A model generated the notes under the pieces. It worked only from the letters and a program-made list of their open reading frames with translations. It had not been told where the DNA came from and ran no database searches. Below, one piece after another: positions 10,268 through 53,824 of a stretch of 53,824 nt of DNA; the first letter of the stretch is position 1, and each line of letters begins with the position of its first letter. Source of the stretch: Bacteroidota bacterium (GTDB lineage Bacteria; Bacteroidota; Rhodothermia; Rhodothermales; Bin80). Both the position numbers and the translations under genes were made by a program. The DNA lies in the NCBI GenBank assembly GCA_026709335.1, contig JAPOTE010000029.1, forward strand, positions 1 to 53,824, given 5' to 3'.

Positions 10268-10734
10268 TATGATATTAGATAAGATTACAAATTGTATCAA
10301 TTGCTTACCGTTTTCACGGCGATGCCAAATATACGACCTATATTCCGGTGCTTAGATAAAAACAGTGATTTTTTGTAAAATCTCTTTTTCTCTGTACTCA
10401 CTGACAGGTATGCTCTGTTCAAAAATGCCAGGGTAAAACACTAGTATTTGAGAGTGACGTCTTGCGATCCTTTGTCTAGTCCGGATTATGAATTTCTCGA
10501 AAGCGGTCATAATCGATCCCCTCACTGCATCATAATTCAGGTTATCATGGTTTCATATTTGGCGAACTATTGCCGCAAGCGACTATTCTTCTGAAGACTA
10601 CTTGATGCAAGGATCGATCAAGAAATTGTAACCTTTTGTCCTTACCATTGATTGTTGTCATGCAAAAGTATAAAGAGTCTCTTACAAAATCTCTTTTCCG
10701 GACAGGAAAGACCCTCACAGGTATCCTCAGAGCA
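10268..10734. other. Divergent intergenic region with repeat-like segments
   Basis: No convincing gene lies between the cupredoxin and the second sulfatase. About 10374-10420 (AAAATCTCTTTT, then ACAGGTAT-CTC) resembles the repeat copy at 10669-10778, suggesting a second degenerate copy. Promoters for both divergent genes must lie here, but no sigma-factor box is clear enough to call. Confidence 0.4.
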
Positions 10735-10778
10735 ATGTATATGTCCAATCTCGGGAATTTTGCAAGGGGCTCTTTATA
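10669..10778. repeat. Foldable intergenic repeat, copy A
   Basis: About 110 bases bounded by the exact inverted pair TATAAAGAG (10669-10677) and CTCTTTATA (10770-10778). Inside is a second pair, CTTACAAAAT (10681-10690) with ATTTTGCAAG (10757-10766), pairing at 9 of 10 positions, and a local hairpin TTTTCC/GGAAAG (10694-10710). The middle is closely similar to 21589-21676 (copy B). It overlaps the probable start codon and signal-peptide beginning of the sulfatase gene. It may be a mobile intergenic repeat or a structured 5' leader. Confidence 0.5.
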
Positions 10779-26074: not shown

Positions 26075-27517
26075 TCAGGCCAACACCTTGTGCACAACGT
26101 GACCATGTACATCTGTTAAGCGAAAATCTCTGCCCTGAAAAGGATAGGTTAGTCGCTCATGATCAAACCCAAGCAAGTGCAGAATCGTAGCCTGAAGGTC
26201 ATGAACATGTACGCGGCCACTCACCGCACTATATCCAATCTCATCGGTTTCACCATGAGTAATCCCCCCCTGGATACCACCACCGGCCATCCACATTGTA
26301 TAGACATCACTGTGATGATCTCTTCCCACATAGGGGTTATCTGAGCCTGATCGGTTCTCCAACATCGGAGTTCGCCCAAACTCCCCGCCCCAAATCACTA
26401 AGGTTTCTTCCAGAAGACCCCTTTGATCAATATCCGTCAGAAGTGCCGTTACCGGACGATCCGTTTCTCTACATCGATGCAGAAATCCTCCATCCAGAGA
26501 CTCGCTCTCTCCCGCCCCATGTGAGTCCCAACCCCAGTGAAACAACTGAACAAAACGGACCCCACGCTCTACAAGTCGCCGTGCGAGAAGGCAATTATTA
26601 CTGAATGCTGTTTCACCAGGTTCTGTCCCATACAACTCGTGAATATAGCTTGGTTCACGACTGATATCCATTGCTTCCGGGACAGATGTCTGCATTCGGA
26701 ATGCCATTTCGTATTGTGAGATCCGTGTCAAGATTTCTGGATCCCCAACCTCCTCATGTTGCTGCTGATTGATGGAATTGATTGCATCAATCGTCTTGCG
26801 CCTAAGACTGCGCGGAACCCCATCCGGATCTCCCAAAAATAGAACTGGATCTCCTTTCGTTCTGCATTGAACTCCCTGATACACGGTCGGAAGGAAGCCA
26901 CTTCCATATACGCTGGCCCCGGCATCTGGCGCGACTCCACCGGAAAGCAAAACGACAAAAGCAGGAAGGTTTTCATTTTCACTGCCAAGCCCATAGGTTA
27001 CCCATGAACCCATACTGGGGCGGCCAAGTCGTGGACTTCCGGAGTGAACCAAAAGCTGCGCCGGAGCATGGTTGAATTCATCCGTATGCATCGCTTTAAG
27101 AAATGCGATCTTGTCGACTACTCGCCCAAGGTGCGGCAAATGATTTGAAATCCATGCCCCGGACTCTCCATGCTGCTGAAACGAGGCTTGCGGGCCCAGC
27201 ATCTTCGGGATCCCGCGAATAAATGCAAATCTCTTCCCTTCCAGAAGAGATTCCGGGCAATCCTGTCCATCCAGTCGAGCCAAATCCGGCTTGTAGTCAA
27301 ACAGCTCAAGCTGAGAGGGGCCTCCAGCCATGTGCAAAAAAATCACCCGTTTTGCCTTCGGTGCGAAATGTGGCCCGGGAGCAGATGGTGCAACCGCAGA
27401 GGCGGTCCCGAGCGATGCAAACGCCATTGCCCCGAGGCCTGCACCTGCAGATTTCAGAAAATGACGGCGTGTAATATGCCCCAAATAGGTATGACGGGCT
27501 TCGTTGATAAGGCTCAT
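26075..27517 (-). CDS. Tat-exported DUF1501 protein (pair 3)
   Basis: A 480-residue DUF1501 protein, structurally related to sulfatases and alkaline phosphatases. The N-terminal twin-arginine signal is TRRHFLKSAGAGLG (residues 17-30). Family blocks: FLHMAGGPSQLELFDYKP, HDFNHAPAQ-like [23 protein letters not shown] and YVGRDHHSDVYTMWMAGGG. The C-terminus ends in the shared motif [14 protein letters not shown]. It is the last gene of a six-gene minus-strand block, 43 bases behind its partner cytochrome-type gene. The family's substrate is unknown, though genomic pairing with DUF1549/DUF1553 is general in Planctomycetes and relatives. It carries no extra domain. Confidence 0.9.
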   Translation of the reverse strand: MSLINEARHTYLGHITRRHFLKSAGAGLGAMAFASLGTASAVAPSAPGPHFAPKAKRVIFLHMAGGPSQLELFDYKPDLARLDGQDCPESLLEGKRFAFIRGIPKMLGPQASFQQHGESGAWISNHLPHLGRVVDKIAFLKAMHTDEFNHAPAQLLVHSGSPRLGRPSMGSWVTYGLGSENENLPAFVVLLSGGVAPDAGASVYGSGFLPTVYQGVQCRTKGDPVLFLGDPDGVPRSLRRKTIDAINSINQQQHEEVGDPEILTRISQYEMAFRMQTSVPEAMDISREPSYIHELYGTEPGETAFSNNCLLARRLVERGVRFVQLFHWGWDSHGAGESESLDGGFLHRCRETDRPVTALLTDIDQRGLLEETLVIWGGEFGRTPMLENRSGSDNPYVGRDHHSDVYTMWMAGGGIQGGITHGETDEIGYSAVSGRVHVHDLQATILHLLGFDHERLTYPFQGRDFRLTDVHGHVVHKVLA

Positions 27518-27560
27518 TCGATCTAGTTTACTTCAGTGAACAGCGTTGCACCGACCATGG

Positions 27561-30032
27561 CTACTCTTTCATTAGGAATTGATCCAGATTGAGAATTGCG
27601 TTAGCGACAATAGTTAGGGCTGCCAAGTCAATAGATCCCGACTCACCGGTCAAGCTTGCGGAATCCTCATGATTCTCGGTATAATGGGCAAATGCATCCG
27701 TATACAAGGTACTCAATACGTCCATATCTTCGGGGGCAGGAGATGTCCCCATGGCATAGGTATAACCTGCTGCAATTGAATCCTCCGCACGAAGCATGCG
27801 CTTCGCCAATGCCTGAGCTGCCTCAACAAACACAGGATCATTTAGCGTTACCAATGCCTGCAAAGGTGTATTAGTTCGAATTCTCCTTGACATGCATACT
27901 TCTCGACTTGGACTGTCAAAGGTTGCCATGGAAGGATACGGGACAGTTCGCCTCCAATAGGTATACACCGCACGTCTGTATCGATTATCTCCTTCACTGG
28001 TCTGCCACTGTCGGCTATCGTAGGGGTTCTTCCAAAGCCCTTCCGGCTGGGGAGGCATAACACTTGGCCCGTACATCTTTGAACTCAGCAGGCCACTCAC
28101 CTGAAGTGCCTGATCCCGAACCTTTTCGGCGTTGAGCCGAAAACGAGGCCCTCGAGCCAAGTTTCGATTGTGTGGATCCATTCGGATGGCTTCTTCCGTT
28201 ACATGTGATGACTGGCGATACGTAGCTGAAAGGACAACAGAACGCAAAAACGACTTCATACTCCAGTCATGATCTTCCATGAAACTGACGGCCAAATAAT
28301 CCAAAAGATCTGCATTTGAGCGCTCCAGTCCTTGTGTTCCAAAATCTTCCAAAGATTCCACTATGCCGGTTCCAAAAATCTGCTCCCAAAACCGGTTTGC
28401 AGTAACCCGTGCCGTCAGCGGGTTCTCATCACTGACTAGCCACTGTGCCATCCCCAGACGATTTCGTGGTGCACCTTCAGGCATGGCAGGTAACACATCC
28501 GGGGTGTCAGGAGCCACGCGATCTCCTTTCAGAAGGAAACTGCCCCGCTCCAGTACATGAGTCCGACGCTGGAATGGCAACTCCTGCATGATCGGCGTAT
28601 GAATTGGATTCAAAGCATGCATGGCACGTTCCTTTTCTCTTTTCTCAGATCGCAGACGCGTGATCACAGGATCATCACTCAAATTGGCATATACATGATC
28701 GAGCGTCCAGATCTGTGCATCTCCGCGATCTTTTTCCGGCGTAGCCACAACTCGTTTGACTTCGTTCTGCTTCATCAACGGTACGCGTCCAATCACTTCC
28801 GGCTGATTGAGTGTCGTTTCCCAGGTGCGACGCAGAGCTACCAGCGAATCTGAGCGAATCTGAGCAAGAATTGCATCTTCCAATTTCGTAATCTCACTCA
28901 TCAATACGGATCCCTCTGTAGATTTCTCCTCCTCAAAGAAGGGAAGTGTGGGATATTCGCTGTCCAGATCACGATCTGCAGTGCTGTTGAAAAAAGCAAA
29001 AAATTCGAAGTACTCCCGATGCGTGAACGGATCGTAAGGATGCCCATGGCACTGAACACAGGAAAAGGTAGTCCCCTGCCAAACCTCCCAGGTCGTATTG
29101 ACGCGATCAACGACAGCCGCAACACGAAATTCTTCATCGTCCGTACCGCCTTCTGTGTTCGTCATGGTATTGCGATGGAAGGCTGTCGCAATGAGTTGAC
29201 TCTCGGTTGCACCCGGAAGCAGGTCCCCTGCCAATTGCTCAATTGTAAACTGATCGAATGGCATGTCCTCGTTAAATGCCCGAATTACCCAATCTCGATA
29301 GCGCCAAATGGTTCGGCCGAGATCTTTTTCATATCCCTGAGAATCGGCATATCGTGCAAGATCCAGCCACATAGATGCCCAACGCTCTCCATAAGTCGGA
29401 AGGCTGAGGAGCAAATCTACATAGTCTTCATACGATAGGTCCTCTGCGATACAGATTTGATTTACGTCTGCAGGTGAAGGAGGCAGGCCAGTCAGATCCA
29501 GAGAAACTCTTCGAATAAGTACGGGGCAGTCAGCTTCGGACTGTGGAGACCAATCCATCTCATCCAACCTCGCAAGAACAAAATAATCCAGAGAATCACG
29601 AATCCAATCAGGATTGGAGACCTTCGGCAATGGAGGACGCTCGGGAGTTACGTAAGCCCAGTGATCCTCCCAGGGAGCTCCCTGCTCAATCCAGCTGCGA
29701 AAGGTCTGGATTTCTTCCGGGGTAAGAGCCGAATCATCCTTCGGCATACGAAGGTCTGGATCAGTATGGGCAATGCGCCTCAAGAGCTCACTTTCCGCGG
29801 GCTCAAACGGCACAATGGCCTTCTCACCGGACTCAGCGGTCATCAGAGCCTCATGCCGAAAAAGTAAACTCAAATCCCCCTGCCGCCGAATTCCTCCATG
29901 ACAGTTGACACACCGATCGTTCAGAACCGGACGAATCTGTTCGTTGAAACTGATTTCCGGGGCACGCTTGCAACCTCCCAATAAAATTCCAGCTGTGGCC
30001 AATACAGTGAACCCAATCCAGTAGCGACTCAT
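27561..30032 (-). CDS. PSCyt1/DUF1549/DUF1553 lipoprotein cytochrome (pair 3, no LamG)
   Basis: An 823-residue lipoprotein (lipobox GGC, C21). The order is: PSCyt1 cytochrome domain with CVNCH (C41/C44/H45) and [13 protein letters not shown]1549 ([13 protein letters not shown], then [10 protein letters not shown]); a second CxxCH ([12 protein letters not shown]) in the middle; and DUF1553 ([31 protein letters not shown]). It is probably a periplasmic or outer-surface heme protein of unknown reaction, tied to its DUF1501 partner downstream. Unlike the other two paralogues it lacks the LamG insert and is about 230 residues shorter. Its start overlaps the preceding DUF1501 stop by four bases. 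Confidence 0.9.
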
Positions 30033-31444
30033 GCGATGAGCGGTTTAATGAGCGTTCCATGTACATCCGTGAGGCGAAACCGACGCCCCTGAAACTTGAA
30101 GGTAAGCCTCTCGTGATCAATTCCAAGAAGATGCAACAAGGTTGCCTGTAGATCATGTACATGAACAGGATTCCGAACGATATTATATCCTAGTTCATCG
30201 GTCTCACCGTAGCTGAGCCCTGGGCGTACTCCTCCACCAGCCATCCACAATGGGAAGCATCGTGGATGATGATCTCGGCCATAATCCGTATCTGTCAGGC
30301 GTCCCTGGCAATAGTTGGTGCGTCCAAATTCTCCGCCCCAGATCACCAATGTATCTTCCAGCATCCCCCGCTGTTTCAGGTCCTGCACCAGAGCGGCCGA
30401 TGGCTGATCCGTTTCCCTTGACTGGACTTGAATTCCGGACGGCAGTCCTCCATGGTGATCCCACCCTTGATGAAAGAGCTGGATAAAGCGAACTCCCCGT
30501 TCAGCCAATCGCCTGGCCAGCAGGCAATTTGCTGCAAACGTGCCTGGATCTCGCGCATCCTCCCCGTAAAGATCAAAGATATATTCCGGTTCATCGGACA
30601 GATCCATCACTTCCGGCACAGAAGTCTGCATTCTGTAGGCCATTTCGTACTGCGCAATCCGGGATTCAATGTCTTCCCAACCGGGTTGACCCGCTTTGAG
30701 TGTATGCAATTCCCGAAGGCGATCAAGCTGCATCCGCCGCTGGGCAGATGATATCCCATCCGGATCTCTTAAATACAGCACTGGATCTCGCCCACTCCGG
30801 AATTGTACCCCTTGGTGCTGAGATGCCAAAAATCCATTCCCCCAAAGCCTTGCATACAATGGCTGTCCTGACTTGTCCTTGGTAATCAGAACGCAGAATG
30901 CAGGAAGGTCCTCATTTTCGGTCCCGAGTCCATAGCTCAGCCAGGATCCAAAGGATGGACGACCTGCGATCTGCGATCCTGTAAGAAAAAAGGTGATGGC
31001 AGGATCATGATTAATAGCTTCGGTATGCATGGATTTGACAATGCACAGTTCATCAGCAATTTTTGCCGTATAGGGCATCAATTCACTGATCCAGGCACCA
31101 CTTTCTCCATGCTGGGCAAAAGAAAAATGCGACCGGGCCAGAGGCAGAGAATTCTGAAATCCTGTCATGCCCGTCAATCGCTGACCCTTCCGAACCGATT
31201 CAGGCAATTCCTCCCCGTGCATCTCATTGACCTTGGGTTTGTAGTCAAACAACTCAAACTGCGAAGGTCCCCCGCTCTGGAATAGATAAATAATACGCTT
31301 TGCCTTGGGGATCATCTTCTGGTCCGCTGCCATGGCCGGATTGACCAGAGAAGATAGTGCCAGTCCCCCGAGCCCCATGCCAAGTTGTGCAAGAAACTCC
31401 CTGCGAGTCTTCAAAGGGCTATAATTGCAACAGTCATGCATCAA
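30029..31444 (-). CDS. Tat-exported DUF1501 protein (pair 2)
   Basis: A 471-residue DUF1501 paralogue with a twin-arginine signal ([17 protein letters not shown], residues 13-29) and an apparent AMAA cleavage site. Conserved blocks: [27 protein letters not shown]-like [27 protein letters not shown] and [19 protein letters not shown]. It overlaps its upstream cytochrome partner's stop by ATGA at 31441-31444 and the downstream pair by four bases, so strict translational coupling is expected. It is closer in sequence to pair 1 than to pair 3 (GRTNYCQG against GRTNYSQG). Confidence 0.9.
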
Positions 31445-34400
31445 TACTTGTGGACGGATTCATCAAAAGATAGCAGTGCATTTGCAACCATCGTATGCGC
31501 GGCCCAGTGTACAGGATCAAGCTCTGTTTGCCGGGAAGATTCTCCAACATCCAATAATTTTTCTGCCGCTTGCGGGTTCTCACGAAAAATCTCTAGTTGC
31601 TCTTTGTACAGCGCTGTGATCGTAACCGATTCGAGTGAGCTTGGACTGCGTCCAGTCAACAGTCGGAATCCGAATTCAATCTGCTGTTCGAGTGCATCCT
31701 TTTCCAGCATGCGGGCGGCAAGATGCCGAGATGCTTCCAAATATTGAGGGTCATTCAGCAGAACCAGAGCCTGCATGGGAGTCGTGGTACGTTGACGACG
31801 TAAAATACACTGCGCACGAGTCGGCATATCGAAGGTGATCAGTGAAGGCGGGGGTGAGGTACGTTTGAAGAATGTATAAAGCGTCCGGCGATAGAGATCA
31901 ATACCCGATCCCTGCTCGTAACGAACCCCGGATTTTTCTTCCCATAGACCTTCCGGTTGATAGGGCTTGACCGGAGGGCCGCCAACGGTCAAATCCAGCA
32001 ACCCACTGACAGCAAGTGCCTGATCTCGAATCATCTCTGCACTCAGGCGAAGCCGCGGCCCGCGGGCCATCAAGGTATTCTCCGGATCAAGAGCCAAAAG
32101 TTCAGAGGTTGTCTCAGATTGTTGCCTATAGGTGGCGCTAGTAACGATCAGACGCTGCATGGCTTTAATATCCCATCCCGACTCCATAAAGGCTACCGCT
32201 AAATGATCAAATAATTGCGGGAATGATGGTAAGGCTCCCTGCCGCCCAAAATCTTCCGGTGTAGACACGAACCCGGCTCCAAAATAATTCTGCCAATAGC
32301 GGTTCACAGCGACGCGTGCGGTAAGAGGATGTTCAGCGCTAAAAAGCCATTCTGCCAACCCCAGCCGATTTTGAGGCAGATCCATCGGGAATGGAAGAAT
32401 AGCTTCCGGGGTATGCAGCTCGACGGGTTCACCTTTTTCATCATACTGTCCACGGTTGAGAATATAGGCTTGACGGGGCATCTTCATCTCTTCCATGACC
32501 ATGATTTCAGAGATATCTTCAACGAGTTCATTCTCCTCTTCACGCAGGCTTTGAAGAATTGCAGAGGCTCGTTGCCAGGGAATGACCTCATGCTCGAGAT
32601 ACCACTCAAAAAGATCTTCTTGATCCGGGGGTACATCCCGAGCGCCCGCCAGACGAGCAACTTCAAATCCATACAACCGCTGGTCATATAGTCTCATTTC
32701 ATCCAGGACGCCACCACGCAATCCGCTGTCCCTGAACCGGTAGGCAACCTGCAACGGCACTTTCAGTGCCTCGTACGTGATCCGCCGAGTCAATCCATCG
32801 CGAACGATCTCGGTCTCAACAGGAAGTCCATTGATATAAAGACGCAGGCCAGAAGCTCGACTAGATCCATCATAACTCATCGCCACGTGCGTCCACTCTC
32901 CAAGTGAAATCGTATCCTTGGTGATGATTCGAAGAGAGTTTTCAGGCCACATATGTGCCAGCTGCGCAATCAGATATCCCTCCTGAAGACCAAACTCCCA
33001 TCCTCGACTACCGGCATCCAAGGCAGCCTGAGTCCGATGGATGATGATTCCTGTCTCCTCACCAGGATTAATCCATACACTGACAGTAAACGGATCTGTT
33101 CGGCGGAATTCCCCCATGTTCTCAAAAGAGAAACCACTTTCACCATCGAAAACTATTGCATTCCCAGCCTGCCCTGGAACCAAATTCGGAGTAAATACGG
33201 CGTTTCCTCTGATTCCCTCTTCACATTGGAGCCGATCCCCATTCAAAGACTCAAAGCTGCATGCAAGAATCGGTTTCGGATTCGTATCAGGGGGGGATGA
33301 GTAATCTCCGAATGCAAAATTTTCTTTGGACACCTCTGCCAAATCAGTCAGTACACGCTCGGCAGCATTGATTTCCTGAGCCAATCGCTCCAATTCTGCC
33401 TGCTGCTGCGGAAGAGGTAAATCCAGTGCAGGAACCGGCACTGCATTCGTAAAATGAGATGTCTGACCGGACTCATCAATATTATTGAAGAAGCTGAACA
33501 GACCAAAATAATTGCGCTGGCTGATCGGATCATACTTATGATCATGGCACCGCGCGCACTCCAGCGTCAATCCCATAAATGCCGCTCCAAACGTATTGAC
33601 GCGGTCTGCTACATATTCGGTTCTGAATTCTTCCTCAATACTGCCTCCCTCATTGGTTTGCCTGTGATTGCGATTGAATGCGGTCGCCAGCCGCTGCTCT
33701 AGCGTGGCATCTGGCAATAGATCACCCGCAAGTTGCCATGTCCCAAATTGATCAAATGGGAGATTGCGATTGTAGGCATCAACAACCCAATCCCGCCACG
33801 GCCATACATGCCGATGTCCATCATTCTGATATCCGTGTGTATCCGCATACCTGGAAATGTCCAGCCAGGAAGATGCCATATGTTCTCCATAGGCCGGTGA
33901 ATTCAGCAATCGGTCAACGACCTTTTCATACGCATGTATGGAGGTATCTGCAAGAAAACTATCCAGTTCCCCCACTGTCGGAGGGAGCCCGGTTAAATCG
34001 AATGTGACTCGCCGAAGGATGGTGTTACGGTCTGCCGCCGCAGAGGGCATCAATCCTTCGCGCTCCAGGCGTGACAGAATAAAGTAGTCGATCTCGTTCA
34101 CGGGCCAGTCCGATTGCTCGACTGAGGGAAATGGGGAAGCTACAGGTGGAAGGAAGCTCCAGTGAGGCTTCCATTCGGCCCCCTGATCAATCCAACGAGC
34201 AATCAACGCAATTTCATTCTCACTCAGTGTCAGATTTGATTCAGGTGGCGGCATTCTCTGTTCGGGAGCTTCGGAACGAATACGTGCATACAGGAGGCTT
34301 TTTCGTGCGCTTCCAGGAACGATTGCATACCCACCAGATGAGAGTTTTGTCTCTTTGGCACCATTTTCTTCATCCAGACGCAGATCCGCCTGCCTCGCAT

Positions 34401-34599
34401 TAGCATCAGGGCCATGGCAGGTGTAGCAACGGTCTGAGAAAATGGGGCGAATATGAAAATTGTAATCTACAACTTCAGGCAACGCCCCCTGATCAGAACG
34501 AAGTGCATTCCCGCAACCCGCGATCATCAGTAGCAGAGCACTAATCAGGATGCATATAAAATTATGCAAGTAGTTCTTTGACCACATGGCCATGTACAT
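31441..34599 (-). CDS. PSCyt1/DUF1549/LamG/DUF1553 lipoprotein cytochrome (pair 2)
   Basis: A protein of about 1052 residues. The signal ends in a lipobox (LMIAGC). PSCyt1 has [11 protein letters not shown]1549 has [12 protein letters not shown] and [10 protein letters not shown], and the central heme-like motif is [11 protein letters not shown]. An insert of about 200 residues with a LamG/concanavalin-like fold follows ([49 protein letters not shown]), then DUF1553 ([34 protein letters not shown]). LamG domains often bind carbohydrate, so the insert may tether the protein to a glycan. Its start (34599, or ATGs at 34593 and 34587) lies inside the 3' end of the upstream DUF1501 gene, a 26-38 base overlap. 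Confidence 0.9.
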
Positions 34600-36022
34600 C
34601 TGTTAGCCTGAATCGGCGCCCTTGATGCCGAAATGTGAGGCGCTCATGTTCAATCCCCAGAAGGTGGAGAACCGTCGCCTGAAAATCGTGCACATGGACG
34701 GGATTTTCGGTGATATTGTAGCCGAGTTCATCCGTGGCTCCGTAGGTAATTCCAGGCTTGATCCCTCCACCTGCCATCCAGATGGTAAAACATCTCGGAT
34801 GATGGTCACGTCCATAGTTTGTTTCCGTAAGTGCGCCTTGTGAATAATTTGTACGTCCAAATTCACCTCCCCAGATCACCAATGTATCATCAAGCAACCC
34901 ACGTTGCTTGAGATCTGTCACCAGAGCTGCGGAGGCCTGATCGGTATCCTTGCACTGGAGGGCAATATCCTGGGGGAGATTTCCATGCTGATCCCATCCC
35001 ATATGGTAGAGCTGGATGAATCGTACATCACGTTCGGCCAGGCGGCGAGCTAGAAGACAGTTGGCAGCATACGTCCCCGGAGTACGGGCGGCCTCTCCAT
35101 AAAGTTCAAATGTAGATTCTGATTCATCAGACAAATCTGTTACTTCCGGCACTGATGTTTGCATTCGATAAGCCATTTCATACTGAGCAATCCGTGACTG
35201 AATTGCAGGATCACCGCTGGTACGATAATGTATTTCGTTCAAGTGGGCCAGATGCCTGAGCATACTGCGCCGATCACCGGGATCCAATCCCGGCGGGTTA
35301 TTGAGATATAGTACGGGCTCTCCACCAGCCCGAAATTTCACCCCCTGATGCAAGGCAGCCAAAAACCCGTTCCCCCAGAGGCGTGAATAGATTGGCTGCG
35401 GACGCTGGAGTCCTCGAGAAAGCAGAACGCAAAACGTTGGAAGATCTTCGTTGGCACTGCCAAGTCCATAACTCAGCCAGGCACCCATACTTGGACGACC
35501 GGGCAACTGCGATCCCGTCTGAAAAAATGTGATGGCTGGATCATGATTGATTGCCTCGGTATACATGGATCGAACGATACACAGATCATCCGCAATTTTG
35601 GATGTATATGGTAGTAGCTCACTGATCCATGCTCTGCTACTGCCATGTTGGGCAAACGGATAGATCGTAGGAGCCAGAGGCAAGGAGTTTTGATATGCAG
35701 TCATCCCGGTCAGGCGCTGTCCCATTCGGATTGACTCTGGAAGATCCTGCCCCCGACGCAGTCGGAGCGCCGGCTTGTAATCAAAGAGTTCCAGTTGAGA
35801 AGGGCCGCCGCTCTGAAACAGATAGATGACCCGACGTGCCTTGGGCGCTAGATGCGGAGAGCTCAAGATGCCCTTCAGCGCCGCCCCTGCTGCCGACTCA
35901 TCTGATCCTGATGTACACCCGATCATGGACGCAAGAGCGGCACCCCCGATACCAAGACTGAGTTTTGAAAAAAAATGCCGCCGATTCATCTGACAGCCGA
36001 TCTCATACAATGGATCTCTCAT
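34562..36022 (-). CDS. DUF1501 protein (pair 1)
   Basis: A 486-residue DUF1501 paralogue. The twin arginine motif is NRRHFFSKLSLGIGG, and a cysteine at LASMIGC suggests it may be a Tat-exported lipoprotein, unlike its two paralogues. The start may be 36022, which overlaps the upstream stop (ATGA), or the internal ATG at 35989 just before the signal. Conserved blocks: [50 protein letters not shown] and [16 protein letters not shown]. It ends [14 protein letters not shown], nearly the same as pair 3. Its 3' end encloses the start of the next cytochrome gene. Confidence 0.9.
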   Translation of the reverse strand: MRDPLYEIGCQMNRRHFFSKLSLGIGGAALASMIGCTSGSDESAAGAALKGILSSPHLAPKARRVIYLFQSGGPSQLELFDYKPALRLRRGQDLPESIRMGQRLTGMTAYQNSLPLAPTIYPFAQHGSSRAWISELLPYTSKIADDLCIVRSMYTEAINHDPAITFFQTGSQLPGRPSMGAWLSYGLGSANEDLPTFCVLLSRGLQRPQPIYSRLWGNGFLAALHQGVKFRAGGEPVLYLNNPPGLDPGDRRSMLRHLAHLNEIHYRTSGDPAIQSRIAQYEMAYRMQTSVPEVTDLSDESESTFELYGEAARTPGTYAANCLLARRLAERDVRFIQLYHMGWDQHGNLPQDIALQCKDTDQASAALVTDLKQRGLLDDTLVIWGGEFGRTNYSQGALTETNYGRDHHPRCFTIWMAGGGIKPGITYGATDELGYNITENPVHVHDFQATVLHLLGIEHERLTFRHQGRRFRLTDVHGHVVKELLA

Positions 36023-39000
36023 CGGTATTGAGCCTCATCCAGATTGATAATTGTACTGGTAACAACCGTCATCGCAGCGAGTTGCACAGGATCGACATCC
36101 GACCATATTGGGCTGACTCCGACGGAGATCAGAGCATGTGCACCGACTGGATCCCCCTGAAATGCCACCATCTGCTCCGCATAAAGATCCATTAATGCAT
36201 TCAATTCCGTCGCTTCAGGTAACCTGGAAGTAAGCCGGCGGAACGCCTCCTCAATCTGCTCCCGTTCATCACCTGTTCTGCCTACCTGAATCTGGAAAGC
36301 CAAAGCACGGGCAGCCTCCACATATTGTGGATCATTCAGGAGGACAAGGGACTGGAGCGGTGTAGCCGTTGATTGACGCTCAACTGTACAGACGGATCGA
36401 TCAGGGGCATCAAAGGTGAGCATGGACGGGGGAGGAATCGTTCGTTTCCAGTATGTATAAAGGCTACGCCGATGAACATCCGGACCTGGACGATAGCGAT
36501 TTTCACCAATCTGATTGGCGAGTGCTTTCCAGAGCCCCGCAGGCTGGTACGGGCGTACGGGTTCACCGCCCACCAATGGGTTCAACAACCCGCTCACCGA
36601 CAGGGCATTGTCTCGCATCATTTCCGCAGAAAGACGTTTCCGCGGCGCACGGGCCAAGAGCAAATTGTCTGGATCATGGAGCTGGTGTATTTGGGTACGG
36701 TGGCTACTTTGGCGATAAGTCGCAGACATGACGATCTGCTTGATGAGAGCCTTCATATCATATCCAGATTCCATAAACGTTACCGCCAGATAATCCAGCA
36801 GTTCTGGGTGGGAAGGTAAAGCGCCCTGATTCCCAAAGTCTTCCGGGGTCTGCACAAGCCCTTCTCCAAAGAGCAGTTGCCAGAAACGATTTACCGCAAC
36901 ACGTGCCGTAAGAGGATTCTTTTCGTGGGTGATCCATTTCGCCAACCCTAAACGATTTCGTGGAAAATCCTCTGGAAAAGAAAGAACTGCTGCGGGAGTG
37001 GATGGTCCAACCGAATCCATTGGTGCATCATAAGCTCCTCGATCCAATATATATGTCATTCGTGGAGTAGCCATCTCCTCCATAATCATTACATCTGGAA
37101 TTCGTTTGAGGCTACGCCGCAGGCTATCCAATGCCAAGTTTGCTGCAAAGAAGTCGCGATCATGATGTACTCGATAATGTATGATTCCCTCGGGCAGTGT
37201 CGATTGATCCGCCAGAAAAGCAACTTCTACATCCGTCAGAGCACGGGCATGCACATACAGTTCATCCAAAGCAGCTCCCTTCATTCCTTCAATTTCATCT
37301 ATAGTTCGATTGCGGGGAGTCCAGTGTCCCGCCAGGAGTCCATTCCCGTTCAAAATACTCTCTCGCTCAAGCGTATCTTCCAAAACCTGAGTCCTGACCA
37401 AGCTGCCATCTACGTAAAGGTGGATTCCGTCCGCCCTCCCGCTCCCGTCGTAGGTTGCCGAAACATGTATCCAGGTATTCGCAGGAATTGAGCGGAGCGA
37501 CTGAACGAAGATCTGATGTTCACCGTCATGAATAAGTCGAAATCCGAGCTTCCCGCCAGTTGTCCTGATCAGGTCATAACCTCCACGCTTCTGTTCACCA
37601 TTGCGCTTGGAGAGCAGTGCGACATCTTTTTCCTGCTCTCTGGCATACACCCATGTGCTCAGGGAAAACCGGTCATACCACTCAAAATCAGCCTCTGCCC
37701 CAAGATCGAGAAAGTTCTCTCCATCAAATAAAATTGCACCTCCTCGTTTCCCAGACATGATCGCTGGAGGAGCAAGAACTTTTTCGAGTCCGGTATTTAT
37801 GTTGCCATCCATACCTTTCAGAGCAGGAGTTCTAAGGCCATACAAAGTGTCCATAGGCAGGAAGGACAGAAGACCTGAATCAATCGTGACTGCAGGATCT
37901 GACAACCATCCGGACGGAGGAGAAATTCGAGGCCAAGATCTAATCAATTGTTCCAGGGAATCAATGTCCGATTCAGTTTGCCTGATAGAAGCCGCCAGTT
38001 CCGGATCCTCGAGCGGAATGGAAGGCTTGGGAGCAAGATCAAAATAACTGATCTGTGCCTGCTCATCGATCCCGTTGAAGAATGCAAACATACTGTAATA
38101 CTCCTCTTGCAGAATCGGATCATACTTATGATCATGACATCTGGCACATTCCATGGTCAGTCCCAGGAATGCAGTTGCGGTCGTATTGGTCCGATCGGCA
38201 ACATATTCCGTCAGATACTCTTCTGCAACGACACCGCCCTCTTGGGTGATGGCGTGATTGCGATTGAATCCTGTCGCCAGACGCTGATCAAATGTAGGAT
38301 CAGGTAATAGATCCCCTGCAATTTGCCAGATCACAAATTCATCATATGGGAGATTATCATTGAATGCACGTACGACCCAGTCTCTCCAGGGCCACATGGT
38401 TCGTGGGCGATCATCCTGATACCCATGCGTATCTGCATAGCGGGAGATGTCCAACCACATGGAAGCCATTCGCTCCCCAAATGCCGGACGCTCAAGAAGT
38501 TCATCTACCACTCGTTCATACGCGCCAGGTCGACTATCCCCCAGAAAACCATCCAGTTCCTCCGGACTCGGCGGTAGCCCTGTCAAATCAAACGTTACGC
38601 GACGGAGTAACTTGGCTGGATGTGCTTCATTTGACGAAGCGAGACCAATGGATTCAATTTTGTGCAGGACAAAGGAATCAATTGGATCTCGAACCCAATC
38701 CTCATTGCGTACCTCAGGGGGTTTGGCTTTCACAGGAGGAATAAACGCCCAATGTGGTTTCCAAGGAGCACCCTGATCAATCCATCGACGGATCAGAGTA
38801 ATTTCCTGTTCGGAGAGAGACAGATTACTCTCGGGCGGAGGCATCCGACGCTTCGGGTCCTGGGTAGAGATGTGTTCTACCAAAACACTTGCATTGGCAT
38901 TGCCTGGAAGAATGATCTGCCGAGAGGAGTCATCCCGGCTTCTCCCATAGGCATTCTCCTGGACATCAAGTCTCAGGCCCGCTTTACGAGTCTGATCATC

Positions 39001-39150
39001 CGGGCCATGGCACTTGTAACAGCGATCGGACAGAACGGGTTTGACGTGCCAATTATAATCCACTGTAGCGGGCAGGCCGGATAGATCAGAAGATGATTGA
39101 GAGCAAGCTGCCAGAAGTAGCAAGATCAAAAGCCAGCTAAATCGAATCAT
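36019..39150 (-). CDS. PSCyt1/DUF1549/LamG/DUF1553 lipoprotein cytochrome (pair 1)
   Basis: About 1043 residues from the ATG at 39150, chosen because MIRFSWLLILLLLAAC then forms a compact lipoprotein signal. A start at 39195 adds 15 residues. The order is CYKCHGPD in PSCyt1, DSFVLHKIESIG and [10 protein letters not shown] in DUF1549, [12 protein letters not shown], a LamG-like insert (FSLSTWVYAREQE, TWIHVSATYDGSGRADG, IHLYVDGSLV, LDELYVHARAL) and DUF1553 ([31 protein letters not shown]). It is the promoter-proximal gene of the six-gene block, so transcription probably starts in 39151-39312. It is closest in architecture to pair 2. Confidence 0.9.
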   Translation of the reverse strand: MIRFSWLLILLLLAACSQSSSDLSGLPATVDYNWHVKPVLSDRCYKCHGPDDQTRKAGLRLDVQENAYGRSRDDSSRQIILPGNANASVLVEHISTQDPKRRMPPPESNLSLSEQEITLIRRWIDQGAPWKPHWAFIPPVKAKPPEVRNEDWVRDPIDSFVLHKIESIGLASSNEAHPAKLLRRVTFDLTGLPPSPEELDGFLGDSRPGAYERVVDELLERPAFGERMASMWLDISRYADTHGYQDDRPRTMWPWRDWVVRAFNDNLPYDEFVIWQIAGDLLPDPTFDQRLATGFNRNHAITQEGGVVAEEYLTEYVADRTNTTATAFLGLTMECARCHDHKYDPILQEEYYSMFAFFNGIDEQAQISYFDLAPKPSIPLEDPELAASIRQTESDIDSLEQLIRSWPRISPPSGWLSDPAVTIDSGLLSFLPMDTLYGLRTPALKGMDGNINTGLEKVLAPPAIMSGKRGGAILFDGENFLDLGAEADFEWYDRFSLSTWVYAREQEKDVALLSKRNGEQKRGGYDLIRTTGGKLGFRLIHDGEHQIFVQSLRSIPANTWIHVSATYDGSGRADGIHLYVDGSLVRTQVLEDTLERESILNGNGLLAGHWTPRNRTIDEIEGMKGAALDELYVHARALTDVEVAFLADQSTLPEGIIHYRVHHDRDFFAANLALDSLRRSLKRIPDVMIMEEMATPRMTYILDRGAYDAPMDSVGPSTPAAVLSFPEDFPRNRLGLAKWITHEKNPLTARVAVNRFWQLLFGEGLVQTPEDFGNQGALPSHPELLDYLAVTFMESGYDMKALIKQIVMSATYRQSSHRTQIHQLHDPDNLLLARAPRKRLSAEMMRDNALSVSGLLNPLVGGEPVRPYQPAGLWKALANQIGENRYRPGPDVHRRSLYTYWKRTIPPPSMLTFDAPDRSVCTVERQSTATPLQSLVLLNDPQYVEAARALAFQIQVGRTGDEREQIEEAFRRLTSRLPEATELNALMDLYAEQMVAFQGDPVGAHALISVGVSPIWSDVDPVQLAAMTVVTSTIINLDEAQYR

Positions 39151-39312
39151 GATCCGGAAGAGACACCATGGCAGAATATACAATATCAATGGCACAATGC
39201 CGGGGAGCCGAAAAAATTAGGGAGAATTTTACAGATAAACATATGCTTATCGCCGGACTCACTGTGACCATCCCACAAGTGCGTGATCTCACCTGATTTT
39301 GTATCAATCATA

Positions 39313-48300: not shown

Positions 48301-49170
48301 ATGAGCATCTTAATTGACAACAACACGAGATTGGTGGTTCAGGGATTTACCGGCAAAGAAGGATCATTTCATGCGGAGCAGATGATTGAGTTCGGAACCA
48401 GTGTAGTTGGAGGTGTAACCCCGGGAAAAGGGGGAATGCAACACCTGGGACGCCCGGTATTCAATACGGTTCATGAATCTGTGACTTCGGAGGGTGCAAA
48501 TACTTCGGTAATATTCGTTCCTCCTGCGTTTGCAAAAGATGCAATTATGGAGGCCGTAGATGCAGGCTTAAAGTTAATCGTATGTATCACTGAGGGAATC
48601 CCTGTCAAGGATATGGTTCAGGCATTCCACTATGTAAAGTCTAAAGGCGCCCGCCTCGTTGGCCCAAACTGTCCAGGCTTGTTGACACCTGGCCAGTCCA
48701 AGGTAGGAATTATGCCGGCTATGATCTTTGCCGAAGGACCTGTCGGTGTCATATCTAGGTCTGGCACCTTGACCTATGAGGCCGTTGATCAACTCACACG
48801 TGAAGGATTAGGGCAAAGTACAGCGATCGGAATCGGTGGAGACCCGGTCATCGGTACCCGCTTCGTTGATGCTCTTCAATTATTTGAAGAAGATCCTGAG
48901 ACCGCTGCGATTGTTTTGATTGGAGAGATTGGAGGAACGGATGAAGAAGATGCAGCAGCATACATTAAAGCCCATATGAACAAACCAGTAATTGCATTCA
49001 TTGCAGGAGCAACTGCTCCTCCCGGACGTCGAATGGGGCATGCCGGGGCAATTATTGCAGGCGGCAAAGGTACGGCAGAGGATAAATTTGAAGCGCTGGC
49101 TGACGCTGGAGCCCACATCGTTCGAGACCCCGCACATATTGGGCAAACCGTTCGGAGCACTGGACTTTGA
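48301..49170 (+). CDS. sucD: Succinyl-CoA ligase (ADP-forming) alpha subunit
   Basis: A 289-residue TCA-cycle enzyme subunit. It has a CoA-binding N-terminal fold ([20 protein letters not shown], then [10 protein letters not shown]) and the phosphohistidine loop in [20 protein letters not shown]. It makes ATP or GTP from succinyl-CoA with SucC, which is not adjacent here. The stop overlaps or directly abuts the engB start, so the two are linked in one transcript. Confidence 0.95.
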
Positions 49171-49181
49171 ATGAATGTCGT

Positions 49182-49772
49182 ATGGAGGTTCAGCACATCA
49201 CTTTTATAAAAAGTGCAGAAAGTCTGGGGCAGATGCCTCATGAGGGATTACCAGAGATTGCCTTCATAGGACGTTCAAATGTAGGCAAGAGCGCACTTCT
49301 GAATATGTTGTGTCGGAGAAAATCCTTGGCACGAATCAGTGCTACTCCAGGAAAAACACAGACATTCAACTTTTATCAAATCAATCATCAACTTTATTTC
49401 GTGGACATTCCAGGATATGGCTACGCGAAGGTGAGCAAAAGAGCCAGAGCTCAATGGCGAAGACAGATTGCGGCTTATCTCACACAACGCATCACATTAA
49501 GTGCAGTGCTTCACTTGGTAGACAGCCGCCATCCCCCTACGGATCTGGACCAGGAAGTCATGATACTCCTGCGCGAGACTGATGCCCAACGCTTTCTGGT
49601 CCTCACAAAAGCGGATAAACTGTCAGGAAATAAAATCACGCAAAGTGTTCAAACTGTTCGGAAGACCATGGAAGCGTACGGAATCGAAATACCGGTCATC
49701 GTAACCTCTGCAACTCAGCGGCGCGGACGACAGGAACTACTGGAACGGATTGGAGTCTTTACTGGAAACTGA
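49182..49772 (+). CDS. engB: Ribosome biogenesis GTP-binding protein EngB/YsxC
   Basis: 196 residues from the ATG at 49182. An in-frame TTG at 49167, overlapping the sucD stop, is the alternative. GTPase motifs: G1 GRSNVGKSALLN, G2 around SATPGKTQTFNFY, G3 DIPGYGYAKVSK, G4 TKADKLS and G5 TSATQR. It helps assemble the large ribosomal subunit in the cytoplasm. It is the last gene of the tatA-gatA-sucD-engB group. The region to 49866 shows only a weak AATTCG/CGAATT stem. Confidence 0.93.
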   Translation: MEVQHITFIKSAESLGQMPHEGLPEIAFIGRSNVGKSALLNMLCRRKSLARISATPGKTQTFNFYQINHQLYFVDIPGYGYAKVSKRARAQWRRQIAAYLTQRITLSAVLHLVDSRHPPTDLDQEVMILLRETDAQRFLVLTKADKLSGNKITQSVQTVRKTMEAYGIEIPVIVTSATQRRGRQELLERIGVFTGN

Positions 49773-49865
49773 ATTCAATACGCGAAGGCGAGACCATCTA
49801 GGCAGGAAATCCTCCATGCAGTGAGGCAAATTCGCTTCAAACGAATTCCCATAACTTCCGAAATA

Positions 49866-51593
49866 CTACTGATGAATTAGTGGAACTGTAATCGAAGAGT
49901 TTCCTGAAATTAATCTGCAAAAATATATCCCCGGTGGTATACTTGCAGCATCAAAGACATAGCTGTGGGTCCCGATAACATGAAATGCATCGGCCAAGGT
50001 GGCTACTTCTTGTCCGAGAAGATTAAAAATGGCCAGTTCAAGGTCTTGGGGCTCATTAACTTGAATAGAAATGGTTGCCTGCTCCTGGAACGGATTTGGA
50101 TAGATCGAAGAAATCATAAAGGAGGCCTCAGGAATAACAGTTTCAATCGCGAGTTCTATCGGATCAGTCGGCGTGAGATCTCTGCCCGAAAATCCACTAA
50201 AGTCCGGCCCATAACGTAATGCCCTGAAAATCCCGTTCTGGAGCCGAACTGAGCCGGGGGGACCAAATGGGGGAATCGGATCTCCCTGAGATAAGCGACC
50301 CGTCGAGATTACGGGATTGATATACTCCCATACTAATTGATTCGAGCCAGATGTAAGCTCAAAAATACGGCCAGTCATCCCTTCGGCAATGAGTGTATTT
50401 CCGTTCGGTAGGCGCTGTTGTCCCGAGAGAAAATTACTGTAAAACTCTCCAGGATCCGAGAACATCCAGACAGACTCCGCGTCCTTGAAAGATCCATCAA
50501 TGTCCTGCTCAAACCAGACAGAATTCCCATAGGAATCTTCCATATAGGGAAGTTTGAGTTCATGGACAGTTGAGTATTCCCCTTCTGGCTGGCCCACTCC
50601 ATTTTCAAAAACCAGCAAATTCCCCTCTCCTGGAAGTTTATCAGGAATCCATGTAACGGAGTGAAGGAAGTGCAAGATCTGATTGCTTTCTGTACCTGCA
50701 CCATACATCTGAGGATTTCCCCAACGGTATAACAGTCGGCCACCTAATCCAAAATTCCCACCTGAATCCCTGCTCGCCTCTTCGGTGGTTGTACTGTGAT
50801 CAATTACCCAGATTTCGTTTACAAAGGATGCACTGATTGCAATAATATCCAACTCCTCATTATAGTCTAATGCATTAAAATGGAGCCAATCCCCGCCAAT
50901 AGATGTATTCACATCAATCCTCTCCGGATAATCCGAAATCGGTTCACCAAAGGTTTCAGATAATAACGGGGTATAATCTTGGACCAGATGGTTCCAGGAA
51001 TCCCATTCCCACACAATCTCTATCGTGTCTGGCAGTACAGGCTTAAATTCAACAATTCGCTCACTTAATATCTCCTTGTGATCATCAATCAAATTTGCAG
51101 GATCATATCCTGCAGCTGTAATCTCGTCCATATCACGCCGGTCCCAAACTATTCCAAGCAGGTTTCCATTTGGCAAAGGCACTACATCATGGTGCAGCAT
51201 GTAATCATCGGTCACAAAATCATATCGCCATCGCAGTGATCCATCCCATTCAATAATCTCGACGCGACCGGACAACCCCTGAACATCTGTCCATCCACCG
51301 GGAGCCGCCGAAACTCTGAGCAGGGATCCATCGGACAATAATCGATTGGTACTTCCAAATGAGGCACTGGTCTTCCACTGATGCACGATATGTCCCTCCA
51401 GATCAATCAAGTAGACGGATGGATTAAGGATCGGAGTAATGAGTGTGTACCCTTCAAATGCGCCGAGATCGTTACGCATCAATCCGACCGTACGCTCCTG
51501 AGCCCGTACAGAAAAAAAAGCAGAAAGGAATAATGAAACTACGATACCTGCCCTCAAGGAATTGAGATGCGGGAGAGACAGAAATTTTGTCAT
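49866..51593 (-). CDS. Exported arylsulfotransferase-family protein with T9SS sorting tail
   Basis: A 575-residue protein. A signal peptide (residues 1-31, ending VRAQ) is followed by an arylsulfotransferase-like beta-propeller with LHHDVVPLPNGNLLGIV, DWLHFNALDYNEELDIIAIS and FLHSVTWIPDK/NLLVFENG. The last ~75 residues match a type IX secretion sorting domain (IYPNPFQEQATISIQV, IFNLLGQEVATL, PPGIYFCRL), so it should be exported to the cell surface. The propeller family moves sulfate between phenols, but the arginine of the SR segment seen in the partner gene is missing here. It is the second gene of an operon, 15 bases after its partner. It may bind or modify sulfated polymers. Confidence 0.75.
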   Translation of the reverse strand: MTKFLSLPHLNSLRAGIVVSLFLSAFFSVRAQERTVGLMRNDLGAFEGYTLITPILNPSVYLIDLEGHIVHQWKTSASFGSTNRLLSDGSLLRVSAAPGGWTDVQGLSGRVEIIEWDGSLRWRYDFVTDDYMLHHDVVPLPNGNLLGIVWDRRDMDEITAAGYDPANLIDDHKEILSERIVEFKPVLPDTIEIVWEWDSWNHLVQDYTPLLSETFGEPISDYPERIDVNTSIGGDWLHFNALDYNEELDIIAISASFVNEIWVIDHSTTTEEASRDSGGNFGLGGRLLYRWGNPQMYGAGTESNQILHFLHSVTWIPDKLPGEGNLLVFENGVGQPEGEYSTVHELKLPYMEDSYGNSVWFEQDIDGSFKDAESVWMFSDPGEFYSNFLSGQQRLPNGNTLIAEGMTGRIFELTSGSNQLVWEYINPVISTGRLSQGDPIPPFGPPGSVRLQNGIFRALRYGPDFSGFSGRDLTPTDPIELAIETVIPEASFMISSIYPNPFQEQATISIQVNEPQDLELAIFNLLGQEVATLADAFHVIGTHSYVFDAASIPPGIYFCRLISGNSSITVPLIHQ

Positions 51594-51608
51594 GCTTTCA
51601 ACGAAAAG

Positions 51609-53156
51609 TCATTGATTATTAGATGGGTAGATTGGAAGACGCTCAATACGATGAAACGTAATCCCGCTGGCAGGTGCCTCCTTACGTACCTCGGCTTCGT
51701 ACAACACTTCTTTTGTGTTGTAGTCCACTTCGACCGTTTTTCCGTTGGGACCAAATTGGAAGTTGGCGCCAGGCATGAAAACTACACTCTGCTCATCATC
51801 ATGGTAATCAACATCCGAAACAATTCCTGAATACGTTGAAAAACCTCGTTCACGACCGTACTCCCAAACCTGCTGGATCGTCATTGCCTGGTCATCAATT
51901 CGATATTCAACAGCCCGACTGAACACGGGCTGCCCTTGATAATGCCGATTATCCCCGTTATCAAATACAAAAAGTGTTCCCTGCGGAGTCAATTTGGGTG
52001 CATGCTGATACCATGGCCACGAGAATTCAGGATGATCAACGAATCCCTGCAGAACTTGAGGATCTGTAATTGGAGTACCGCTCGCATCCAGGGGCTGCAA
52101 TAGTTTGGATTTAAGGTCGGTACCATCCCCGGATTGATCCCATCCTCTATGCTGGCCGAGAATCCAGATTACCTCATTGTTTCGGGAGAGCTTAATCGTA
52201 CCCTGAACACGCCCGGAAACGATTATGGCATCTGTTGCCTCGTCATAGGTCAGTCCATTTGAATGAATCCAGTCTCTGGGATTACTACTCAAAATGCGGC
52301 GTCTTTGATCAAGGGATTCTCTGAGATCCCATACCTGGATAATATTACCACTGACCCTGTGAATCTCTATAATATGATCCTCAATGGTCGGGAGGTCATT
52401 CTTGGAGACAGTTGCGAGCAAATTCCCGTTTGGGAGTTCCAGTACATTGTGATGAAACCAATACCCAGGAATAGGCCACTCATTAATCACATTGCCCAGC
52501 ATGTCCATCTCTACAATGCGCCCGCTACTACCATCACCAAAATACAGATTCCCATTGCGAAGACGCTCAACCCCCGCGTCATAAAATAGCTTCCCGAGCA
52601 CCGGGTGTGTAGCCATATTGGCATACCATCGAATATAGCCCTCCTCGTCAAATATAAACGGAATTTGGGGTAGCTGACTGTTTGTATGTCCAAAGTAGCT
52701 CACGAGGTTCATTCCAGGTTTTTGACGACCGGTGTTGACAGAAACGTTGATGCCGGGAAGTTCTGGCAGCAGCTTCTGGGTATCAATAGATCGACTCTCT
52801 TCCCCCATCAGTTGATTACGATTATCATAAAATCGGATGTGCAGAGTATTCGTATGCTCCGGATAGAGTCCGAGGATAGGAAGTGTGAACGAAGTAGCGA
52901 TTTCCTCAAATCGGTGAATGAGCGGCTCTGAGTCGGAGGTTCGGCCTGCAACTTCAATCTCTACTTGGACAGGCACACGGGTTTCCAACTTTAGTTCTGC
53001 TGCGAGTGGAACATACCCCGTCGGGTTCAGAAGCAGAGATTCGGTGGTGATCAATGGTGGTTGAGATGCGGGATCGTCTCCCACATCTGTACTGTCACAG
53101 GCAAGCACCGAACACAGAACTACCGCAATCAGAAAATGCTTCGGAAAGTGTCTCAT
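51609..53156 (-). CDS. Lipoprotein aryl-sulfate sulfotransferase (ASST family)
   Basis: About 515 residues from the ATG at 53156, chosen because MRHFPKHFLIAVVLCSVLAC then forms a lipoprotein signal. A start at 53180 adds 8 residues. The motifs aligning with the E. coli AssT active site are present: WFHHNVLELPNGN, DWIHSNGLTYDE, a following SGR arginine and YQHAPKLTPQG with the putative nucleophilic histidine. AssT transfers sulfate between phenolic esters in the periplasm without PAPS. It is first of the two-gene operon with the T9SS-tagged relative. Activity and acceptor are not proven. Confidence 0.8.
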   Translation of the reverse strand: MRHFPKHFLIAVVLCSVLACDSTDVGDDPASQPPLITTESLLLNPTGYVPLAAELKLETRVPVQVEIEVAGRTSDSEPLIHRFEEIATSFTLPILGLYPEHTNTLHIRFYDNRNQLMGEESRSIDTQKLLPELPGINVSVNTGRQKPGMNLVSYFGHTNSQLPQIPFIFDEEGYIRWYANMATHPVLGKLFYDAGVERLRNGNLYFGDGSSGRIVEMDMLGNVINEWPIPGYWFHHNVLELPNGNLLATVSKNDLPTIEDHIIEIHRVSGNIIQVWDLRESLDQRRRILSSNPRDWIHSNGLTYDEATDAIIVSGRVQGTIKLSRNNEVIWILGQHRGWDQSGDGTDLKSKLLQPLDASGTPITDPQVLQGFVDHPEFSWPWYQHAPKLTPQGTLFVFDNGDNRHYQGQPVFSRAVEYRIDDQAMTIQQVWEYGRERGFSTYSGIVSDVDYHDDEQSVVFMPGANFQFGPNGKTVEVDYNTKEVLYEAEVRKEAPASGITFHRIERLPIYPSNNQ

Positions 53157-53770
53157 GATCTGTTCCACATATTCTCGCACAATCCATGGGATAAAACCGA
53201 TTCATTTGTTTAGCCCATTATAAAATCTATCTACTCCTATTAAAGATACAGATCCTGAATCATACAGCCCTCCAGAAATAATAGAAAACATCATGTAATC
53301 CTGTACACACAAGAACGTGTAGATTTTTGTTTGACCGGATAGAAGTTCATATTCCAGTTGGTGGATTGGGAAACTTGAACTAATCTGCGTTTAGGAGAAG
53401 AGGATAGGTTCCCTCAGAGGGGTATTGAGGAAATAGCCGATTTTGAATGAGGTTTTTGCTATTTATTGTGGCACATAATGTATGTAAAATCGTTAACGTA
53501 GCTAATATGCCTAGGTACATTAATCTATTCGCGCAGCCAGAATCTGCCACATGGCATTATAGATTCGGAAAACTGGAACTTGATAACAGGACAATGACTC
53601 TGAGTTCTTTAAGAAGGGCTCAACCCTTTCAGAACCCTTCAACGCCTGACGGCAACCTGTCGGATTCTGTAATCACAGACGCTCCGACAAACGTCAAGAC
53701 CTAAAGTCATATCAATAGTGATTCCGTTTGGCTACAAAACAAACGAAAGAGGTGGTCGACCCAGAAGGAG
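53157..53770. other. Intergenic region before the tRNA, with a repeat-like segment
   Basis: 614 bases without a convincing gene. A frame of about 85 codons at 53447-53704 begins from a non-ATG codon and shows no recognisable features. The stretch 53414-53460 (CCCTCAGA, then GAGG-TTTTTGC) is reminiscent of the intergenic repeat at 10669 and 21589, but its 5' arm does not pair. Small stems AAGGG/CCCTT (53611-53627) and TGACGGCAACCTGTCGG (53646-53662) are also visible. Confidence 0.4.

Positions 53771-53824
<54 letters not shown>

Follow-up and report, generated by a model that had tools for sequence, protein, structure and literature searches.

Known sulfotransferases and the locus under study

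Proteins of the aryl sulfate sulfotransferase (AssT) superfamily are annotated in bulk in public genomes. In the AssT of Escherichia coli (EcAssT), the sulfuryl group is carried on His436, with His252, His356, Asn358, Arg374 and Thr501 around it; excerpts of a 2026 review (PMC13426309) name Thr501 as a ligand-side residue rather than a nucleophile, and state that most such enzymes of bacteria have natural acceptors yet to be identified. Further comparisons are provided by Cpz4, the caprazamycin sulfotransferase of Streptomyces (9kf4 and 9kf6), and by P40, a 3'-phosphoadenosine-5'-phosphosulfate (PAPS)-independent sulfotransferase from a metagenome, which is compared here by description and for which ping-pong transfer was measured, according to an excerpt of the source (PMC4686663). 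The present analysis concerns two adjoining AssT-like genes, A and B, at the end of a 53,824 nucleotide contig (JAPOTE010000029.1; the whole of this stretch is referred to as the window) of a bacterium kin to the Rhodothermaceae, the genome of which is 97.8 % complete (2.81 Mb in 125 contigs). The most distinctive point of the locus is the occurrence of two diverged AssT forms, a lipoprotein and a cargo of the type IX secretion system (T9SS), as a conserved unit, and it is fairly probable that this two-gene unit serves PAPS-independent sulfuryl transfer outside the cytoplasm.

Both genes are located on the minus strand, with B upstream and A downstream. Gene B (51609..53156) encodes a predicted lipoprotein AssT of 515 amino acids when read from an ATG codon (alternatively 523 amino acids from a GTG codon at 53180), while gene A (49866..51593) encodes a T9SS-tailed, AssT-like beta-propeller protein of 575 amino acids, with 15 bp (51594..51608) separating the stop codon of B from the start codon of A. 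Both products match the arylsulfotransferase family PF05935 above its curated cut-off of 24.2 bits (A 77.1 bits; B 285.9 bits), and a genome-wide search identified these two adjoining genes as the only members of this family in the genome.

Active sites and export signals of the two proteins

Protein B is an additional member of the known AssT kind and is predicted to be a transferase. It matches EcAssT (3elq) with an E-value of 2.8e-59 in a phmmer search, where the match to the N-terminal domain is weak but aligned, and contains the corresponding Ig-like domain at amino acids 42-113 (52818..53033; PF17425, E 8.4e-9), for which there is no such match in A. Alignment to the printed segments of the E. 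coli protein, by which all residues were assigned, places His236 (52449..52451), His298 (52263..52265), Asn300, Arg316 (52209..52211) and His385 (52002..52004) of B, all on the minus strand, at AssT H252, H356, N358, R374 and the sulfuryl-carrying H436, respectively. His298, Arg316 and His385 are invariant among the 22 aligned B proteins and His236 is kept in 21; across this set the five residues are conserved with the exception of a single paralogue (L065). The latter (G002:C13:17817-18839), a second B-type protein of the genome in which it occurs, has a serine at H252 while its remaining active-site residues are kept, and is perhaps a decaying or re-purposed copy. Threonine 501 is not kept, since B has Val446 at this position (Val in 21/22 and Ile in 1/22 B proteins). 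An earlier note, made from the letters of the window, had credited B with complete AssT-like motifs; this holds for the five residues listed above, but not for T501, and "complete" was thus a slight overstatement. The lipoprotein character also claimed for B agrees with a lipobox at amino acids 17-20 (53097..53108, minus strand), ending in a Cys20 that is invariant in 22/22 proteins. In this B differs from the E. coli CFT073 enzyme (3elq, 3ets and 3ett; PF05935), which it resembles in sequence family, the five residues and the N-terminal domain; as its only cysteines are at positions 15 and 20, B also does not have the AssT disulfide. An AlphaFold2 run on B with three sequences reached a pLDDT of 55.6 and was not used, so the assignment of B rests on its sequence.

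In A, the equivalents of H252, H356, N358 and H436 are His135 (51189..51191), His238 (50880..50882), which is followed by Phe239 and Asn240 (N358), and His311 (50661..50663), all on the minus strand, and these four are conserved in 18/18 A orthologues. The place of Arg374 is taken by Ser256 (50826..50828, minus strand), and arginine is absent at this site from 17/18 orthologues (Ser in fourteen, Gly in two, Pro and Arg in one each), with the sole Arg-bearing orthologue (L028) being that of lowest identity to A (42 %). Loss of the arginine by chance or by decay was rejected on the grounds of its absence from these 17 orthologues and of low ratios of nonsynonymous to synonymous substitution (dN/dS). 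A further difference is the T9SS type A C-terminal sorting domain at amino acids 497-569 of A (49887..50105, minus strand; PF18962, Por_Secre_tail, E 2.7e-10; TIGR04183, E 5.9e-12), in which P499, N500, P501, G527, G541, G555 and Y557 are invariant in 18/18 orthologues. A PorU sortase, the component at which the search for T9SS was aimed, is encoded in the genome (968.6 bits against a cut-off of 420). By sorting domain and genomic sortase A is a T9SS type A cargo, and its secretion is predicted. Both the T9SS tag and the want of the "SR" arginine, as put forward in the earlier note, were thereby recovered. In comparison with EcAssT, A shares H252, H356, N358, H436 and the predicted propeller fold, but lacks Arg374, Thr501 and the Ig-like domain and carries the T9SS tail.

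Predicted fold of A

Of the structural modelling proposed in the earlier note, the fold of A was modelled (AlphaFold2; amino acids 33-485; 60 sequences, with 59 of 79 loci of the clade described below used in the alignment). This gave a confident propeller model (pLDDT 93.1; pTM 0.93), to which the sulfotransferases Cpz4 and EcAssT are the top folds. Comparison by VIA-align 2 yielded a Z of 31.8 against Cpz4 (9kf6 and 9kf4; 336 residues aligned, rmsd 3.2) and of 25.4-25.9 against six EcAssT entries (322 residues aligned at best, rmsd 2.8), followed by other propellers with Z values of at most 22.4. The predicted model of A thus has the AssT propeller fold (Z 25.9 to EcAssT and 31.8 to Cpz4), at 18-20 % identity to both proteins in the fold alignments. 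With Foldseek, Cpz4 (E 1.9e-16) and EcAssT (E 2.3e-13) lead 588 matches at E <=0.001, a number that is usual for propellers, with query-length TM-scores of 0.59 and 0.52, respectively; the absence of a family from the listings of these fold searches does not exclude that family. By sequence profile A is closer to EcAssT (E 1.6e-8) than to Cpz4 (E 0.0063).

Cpz4, the best fold match, shares further features with A. An extra histidine (His202 of A) is common to A and 4/4 Cpz4-like proteins and absent from EcAssT and 8/8 B proteins. Cpz4 likewise has an arginine at the place of Arg290 of A, a residue that is invariant in 80/80 members of the clade of A. This match is weaker, as two Cpz4-like proteins have glutamine here and the alignment of EcAssT and the B proteins is uncertain at this position (mostly Lys, one Tyr and one Arg). 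That Arg290 replaces Arg374 in A was considered and not adopted, given that Cpz4 also has an arginine at the R374 place, in which it differs from A, and that 2/4 Cpz4-like proteins have Gln at the Arg290 place; the strand order of the model would position Arg290 in an outer strand. One of three Cpz4-like genes examined, that of Rubrobacter tropicus, is located directly behind a gene annotated as a sulfatase.

The clade of A and its arginine site

The relatives of A were counted among the nearest 79 loci, which are the best of at least 572 confirmed. They are mostly from metagenome bins, the names of which may be wrong, and their titles include Bacteroidota, Planctomycetota, Verrucomicrobiota, Chloroflexota, Thermodesulfobacteriota, Acidobacteriota, Thermoplasmatota and others. 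H356 and N358 are conserved in all 79 and H252 and H436 in 78 each, the sole exception being a locus with an interrupted frame (L079), where the H252 part is missing and H436 is replaced by Asp. The arginine site is variable, with Arg in 38, His in 22, Pro in ten, Lys and Asn in two each, and Ser, Gly, Leu, Thr and Ala in one each. On a FastTree phylogeny of 92 rows, built without this site and leaving out L079, a locus with a long insert (L088) and three loci repeating genomes already present, eleven changes between Arg or Lys and other residues could be counted. The T9SS tail is present in at least 27 of the 80 clade members, a lower bound given that the 79 loci were trimmed around the propeller. 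From these tallies, many members of the clade lack the arginine and many carry a T9SS tail. As the missing arginine is recurrent, it gives no sign of a dead binding partner, and an active sulfuryl transferase is likelier. The clade may be viewed as a natural experiment on the need for Arg374, in which this one site varies (R, H, P or S) and the rest of the active site is kept.

A tree of 35 hand-chosen rows, in which EcAssT forms a long branch represented by its printed segments only and for which the program warns of long branches meeting, resolved three separate groups: the clade of A (22 rows; 95/88), B together with EcAssT (nine rows; 100/100) and the Cpz4-like proteins (four rows; 100/100). 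A does not, therefore, group with EcAssT. Searches of the open-licence literature by title and abstract retrieved no paper on the clade of A, nor on aryl sulfate sulfotransferases combined with type IX secretion. The clade apparently has no described member and is set apart from EcAssT and Cpz4 by the tree, with Firmicutes Cluster II (DhAST-type) lying outside this comparison. A is a variant, with a known fold and superfamily, in a separate clade with an optional classical arginine. More tentatively, the clade could be another large class of sulfuryl transferases that do not depend on PAPS, with members in many bacterial phyla and some archaea. Sulfate would be handled in these enzymes by three histidines and an asparagine, and specificity would be tuned at the classical arginine position (R, H, P, K, S, G or N). 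The T9SS-tailed members might then be extracellular enzymes that sulfate surface or host-matrix molecules without a cofactor, or exchange sulfate on them; at the present locus, B would be the partner on the membrane side.

Tandem arrangements of two or three genes of this clade are frequent, also in other lineages (L075, L077, L094 and others), and a 2542-residue open frame with an A-type domain is found in a Verrucomicrobiota bin (L111:773-8398).

Conservation, linkage and selection

The family set comprises sixteen genomes, namely the source genome and fifteen relatives. Both A and B are present in 16/16 and adjacent in thirteen, and the recurrence of this adjacency in 12/15 relatives is not due to chance. 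The two coupled arylsulfotransferase-family genes of the earlier note were thus found in place, as open reading frames with a PF05935 domain in each and as neighbours in most of the family. Within the genus, dN/dS values (NG86; 9/45 pairs for each gene with dS <2) range from 0.070 to 0.146 for A and from 0.068 to 0.154 for B, and A is under purifying selection like B. Among the neighbours of the pair, which were clustered across the family genomes by single linkage at >30 % identity using mechanically called open reading frames, a protein of family DUF3500 (PF12006) is encoded next to A or B in 6/16 genomes (G010-G015), its identity resting on a Pfam scan of one of the six (L159:10767-11957). 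It is possible that this protein is a functional partner.

Sulfatase context

Sulfatases had been cited in the earlier note as support for a role in the handling of sulfate esters. Three are encoded in the window, with the motifs CAPSR, CSASR (the gene at 10636-12201) and CSPSR. The pair is separated by 29.9 kb from the end of the closest of these, and the genome has sixteen sulfatase matches, some of them fragments, along with two genes of the formylglycine-generating-enzyme family. Being approximately 30 kb distant and three of the sixteen in the genome, those in the window say little. The argument fares better in the family, where a sulfatase adjoins the pair in 6/16 genomes, against a chance expectation, by our own arithmetic from sixteen sulfatases per 2.81 Mb, of about 0.03 within 5 kb. 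Four of these (G003, G007, G008 and G009) have a sulfatase of one type on the same strand, while G011 and G014 have a different sulfatase on the opposite strand, with a small mechanically called frame between; Pfam confirmed one of the six, in G003 (177.9 bits), and the other five were identified by similarity and motif. As the four and the two genomes each probably represent one event, the sulfatase beside the pair is suggestive rather than strong evidence. The "reversible" handling of sulfate esters proposed in the earlier note does not follow, because hydrolysis by a sulfatase is not the reverse of transfer by AssT.

Proposed mechanism and alternative explanations

Together with the sequence family of both proteins, the predicted fold of A, and the observed conservation, linkage and export signals, a mechanism may be proposed, in which catalysis by A and B, the donors and acceptors, and the surface location are what we infer. 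Both proteins would act on sulfate esters, because of their family and residues. At the membrane-anchored B, an aryl sulfate would give its sulfuryl group to His385, from which a phenolic or alcoholic acceptor would then take it in a ping-pong manner. A, as a second, anciently diverged AssT-type propeller, would be exported and sorted by the T9SS, most likely using His311 likewise, while His135, His238 and Asn240 would hold the sulfate and the Arg374 contact would be missing. Its extracellular chemistry would be that of B or close to it, at an altered anion-binding site, and labour may be split by place and substrate, with B at the membrane and A on the cell surface or in the surrounding medium. 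Several observations weigh against this proposal. A and B are unlinked in 3/16 family genomes (G001, G010 and G015), where the two genes are on separate contigs and each has other neighbours. In 43 other genomes of the order, A was found in G040 and G044 and B-type proteins in G016, G023, G044, G046 and G052, so that either can occur without the other. A has a leucine at the place of AssT T501. There is no sulfatase linkage at this locus, and in the clade of A a sulfatase is located near 12/79 loci (two of which, L070 and L071, are family members already counted), which is not a general association and shows no clear trend with distance: five matches lie within 2.5 kb, another five at 2.5-5 kb and two at 5-7.5 kb, corresponding to 1.46, 1.84 and 0.92 matches per 100 kb of available sequence, in a scan with five sulfatase queries at E 1e-8 that distant sulfatases may escape.

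Transfer by the pair has to be weighed against other roles of A. The earlier note had suggested a binding or altered-specificity partner. An altered specificity of A is possible. In the case of binding, A could be a non-catalytic surface binder of sulfate esters or sulfated glycans, feeding B or anchoring cells, as would suit the replacement of Arg374 in 17/18 orthologues and the T9SS tail of A alongside the genomic PorU. This is nonetheless improbable: the nucleophile histidine is retained together with the remaining His and Asn residues, in 18/18 orthologues and nearly so in the 79 clade loci, and the arginine, found in 38/79 clade members with eleven changes, is not lost in step with the rest. 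With the catalytic residues maintained under strong selection (dN/dS of A 0.07-0.15), binding alone is the less likely role. Just as improbable is a sulfatase-like hydrolase, in which water would replace the alcohol acceptor and A would remove sulfate outside the cell along with the formylglycine sulfatases. The sulfatase beside the pair in 6/16 family genomes and the sulfatases and formylglycine-generating enzymes of this genome (sixteen matches and two genes) would fit such an activity, but no residue specific to water activation was identified in A, and sulfatases are abundant and show no linkage trend across its clade. Still less probable is a propeller of another function that merely shares AssT ancestry. 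Such a reading draws on the score of just 77 bits to PF05935, the 18-20 % identity to Cpz4 and EcAssT in fold alignments and the separation of the clade from both, yet it is the active-site residues, beyond the fold, that are kept over many phyla.

A conserved exported AssT pair that adjoins a sulfatase in some relatives is a place to seek natural acceptors. The nearest named relative, bin80 (L070), is a genome bin of the sponge Aplysina aerophoba; excerpts of its description (PMC5649159) report sulfated polysaccharides as abundant in the sponge matrix and place bin80 in guild III (generalists), not in the arylsulfatase-rich guild.

Other features of the window

Scans for sigma-70 promoters (eight against 7.0 in shuffled sequence) and terminators (four against 2.9) gave counts near the shuffle level, and ARAGORN found no tRNA gene in 49000-53824. 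The end of the contig (53771-53824) by eye resembles the 3' part of a tRNA gene on the minus strand, ending in CCA, where ARAGORN calls no gene. Elsewhere in the window, 26075-39195 encodes three consecutive pairs of a DUF1501 gene and a PSCyt1/PSCyt2/PSD1 gene, with a Laminin_G_3 domain in two of the latter.
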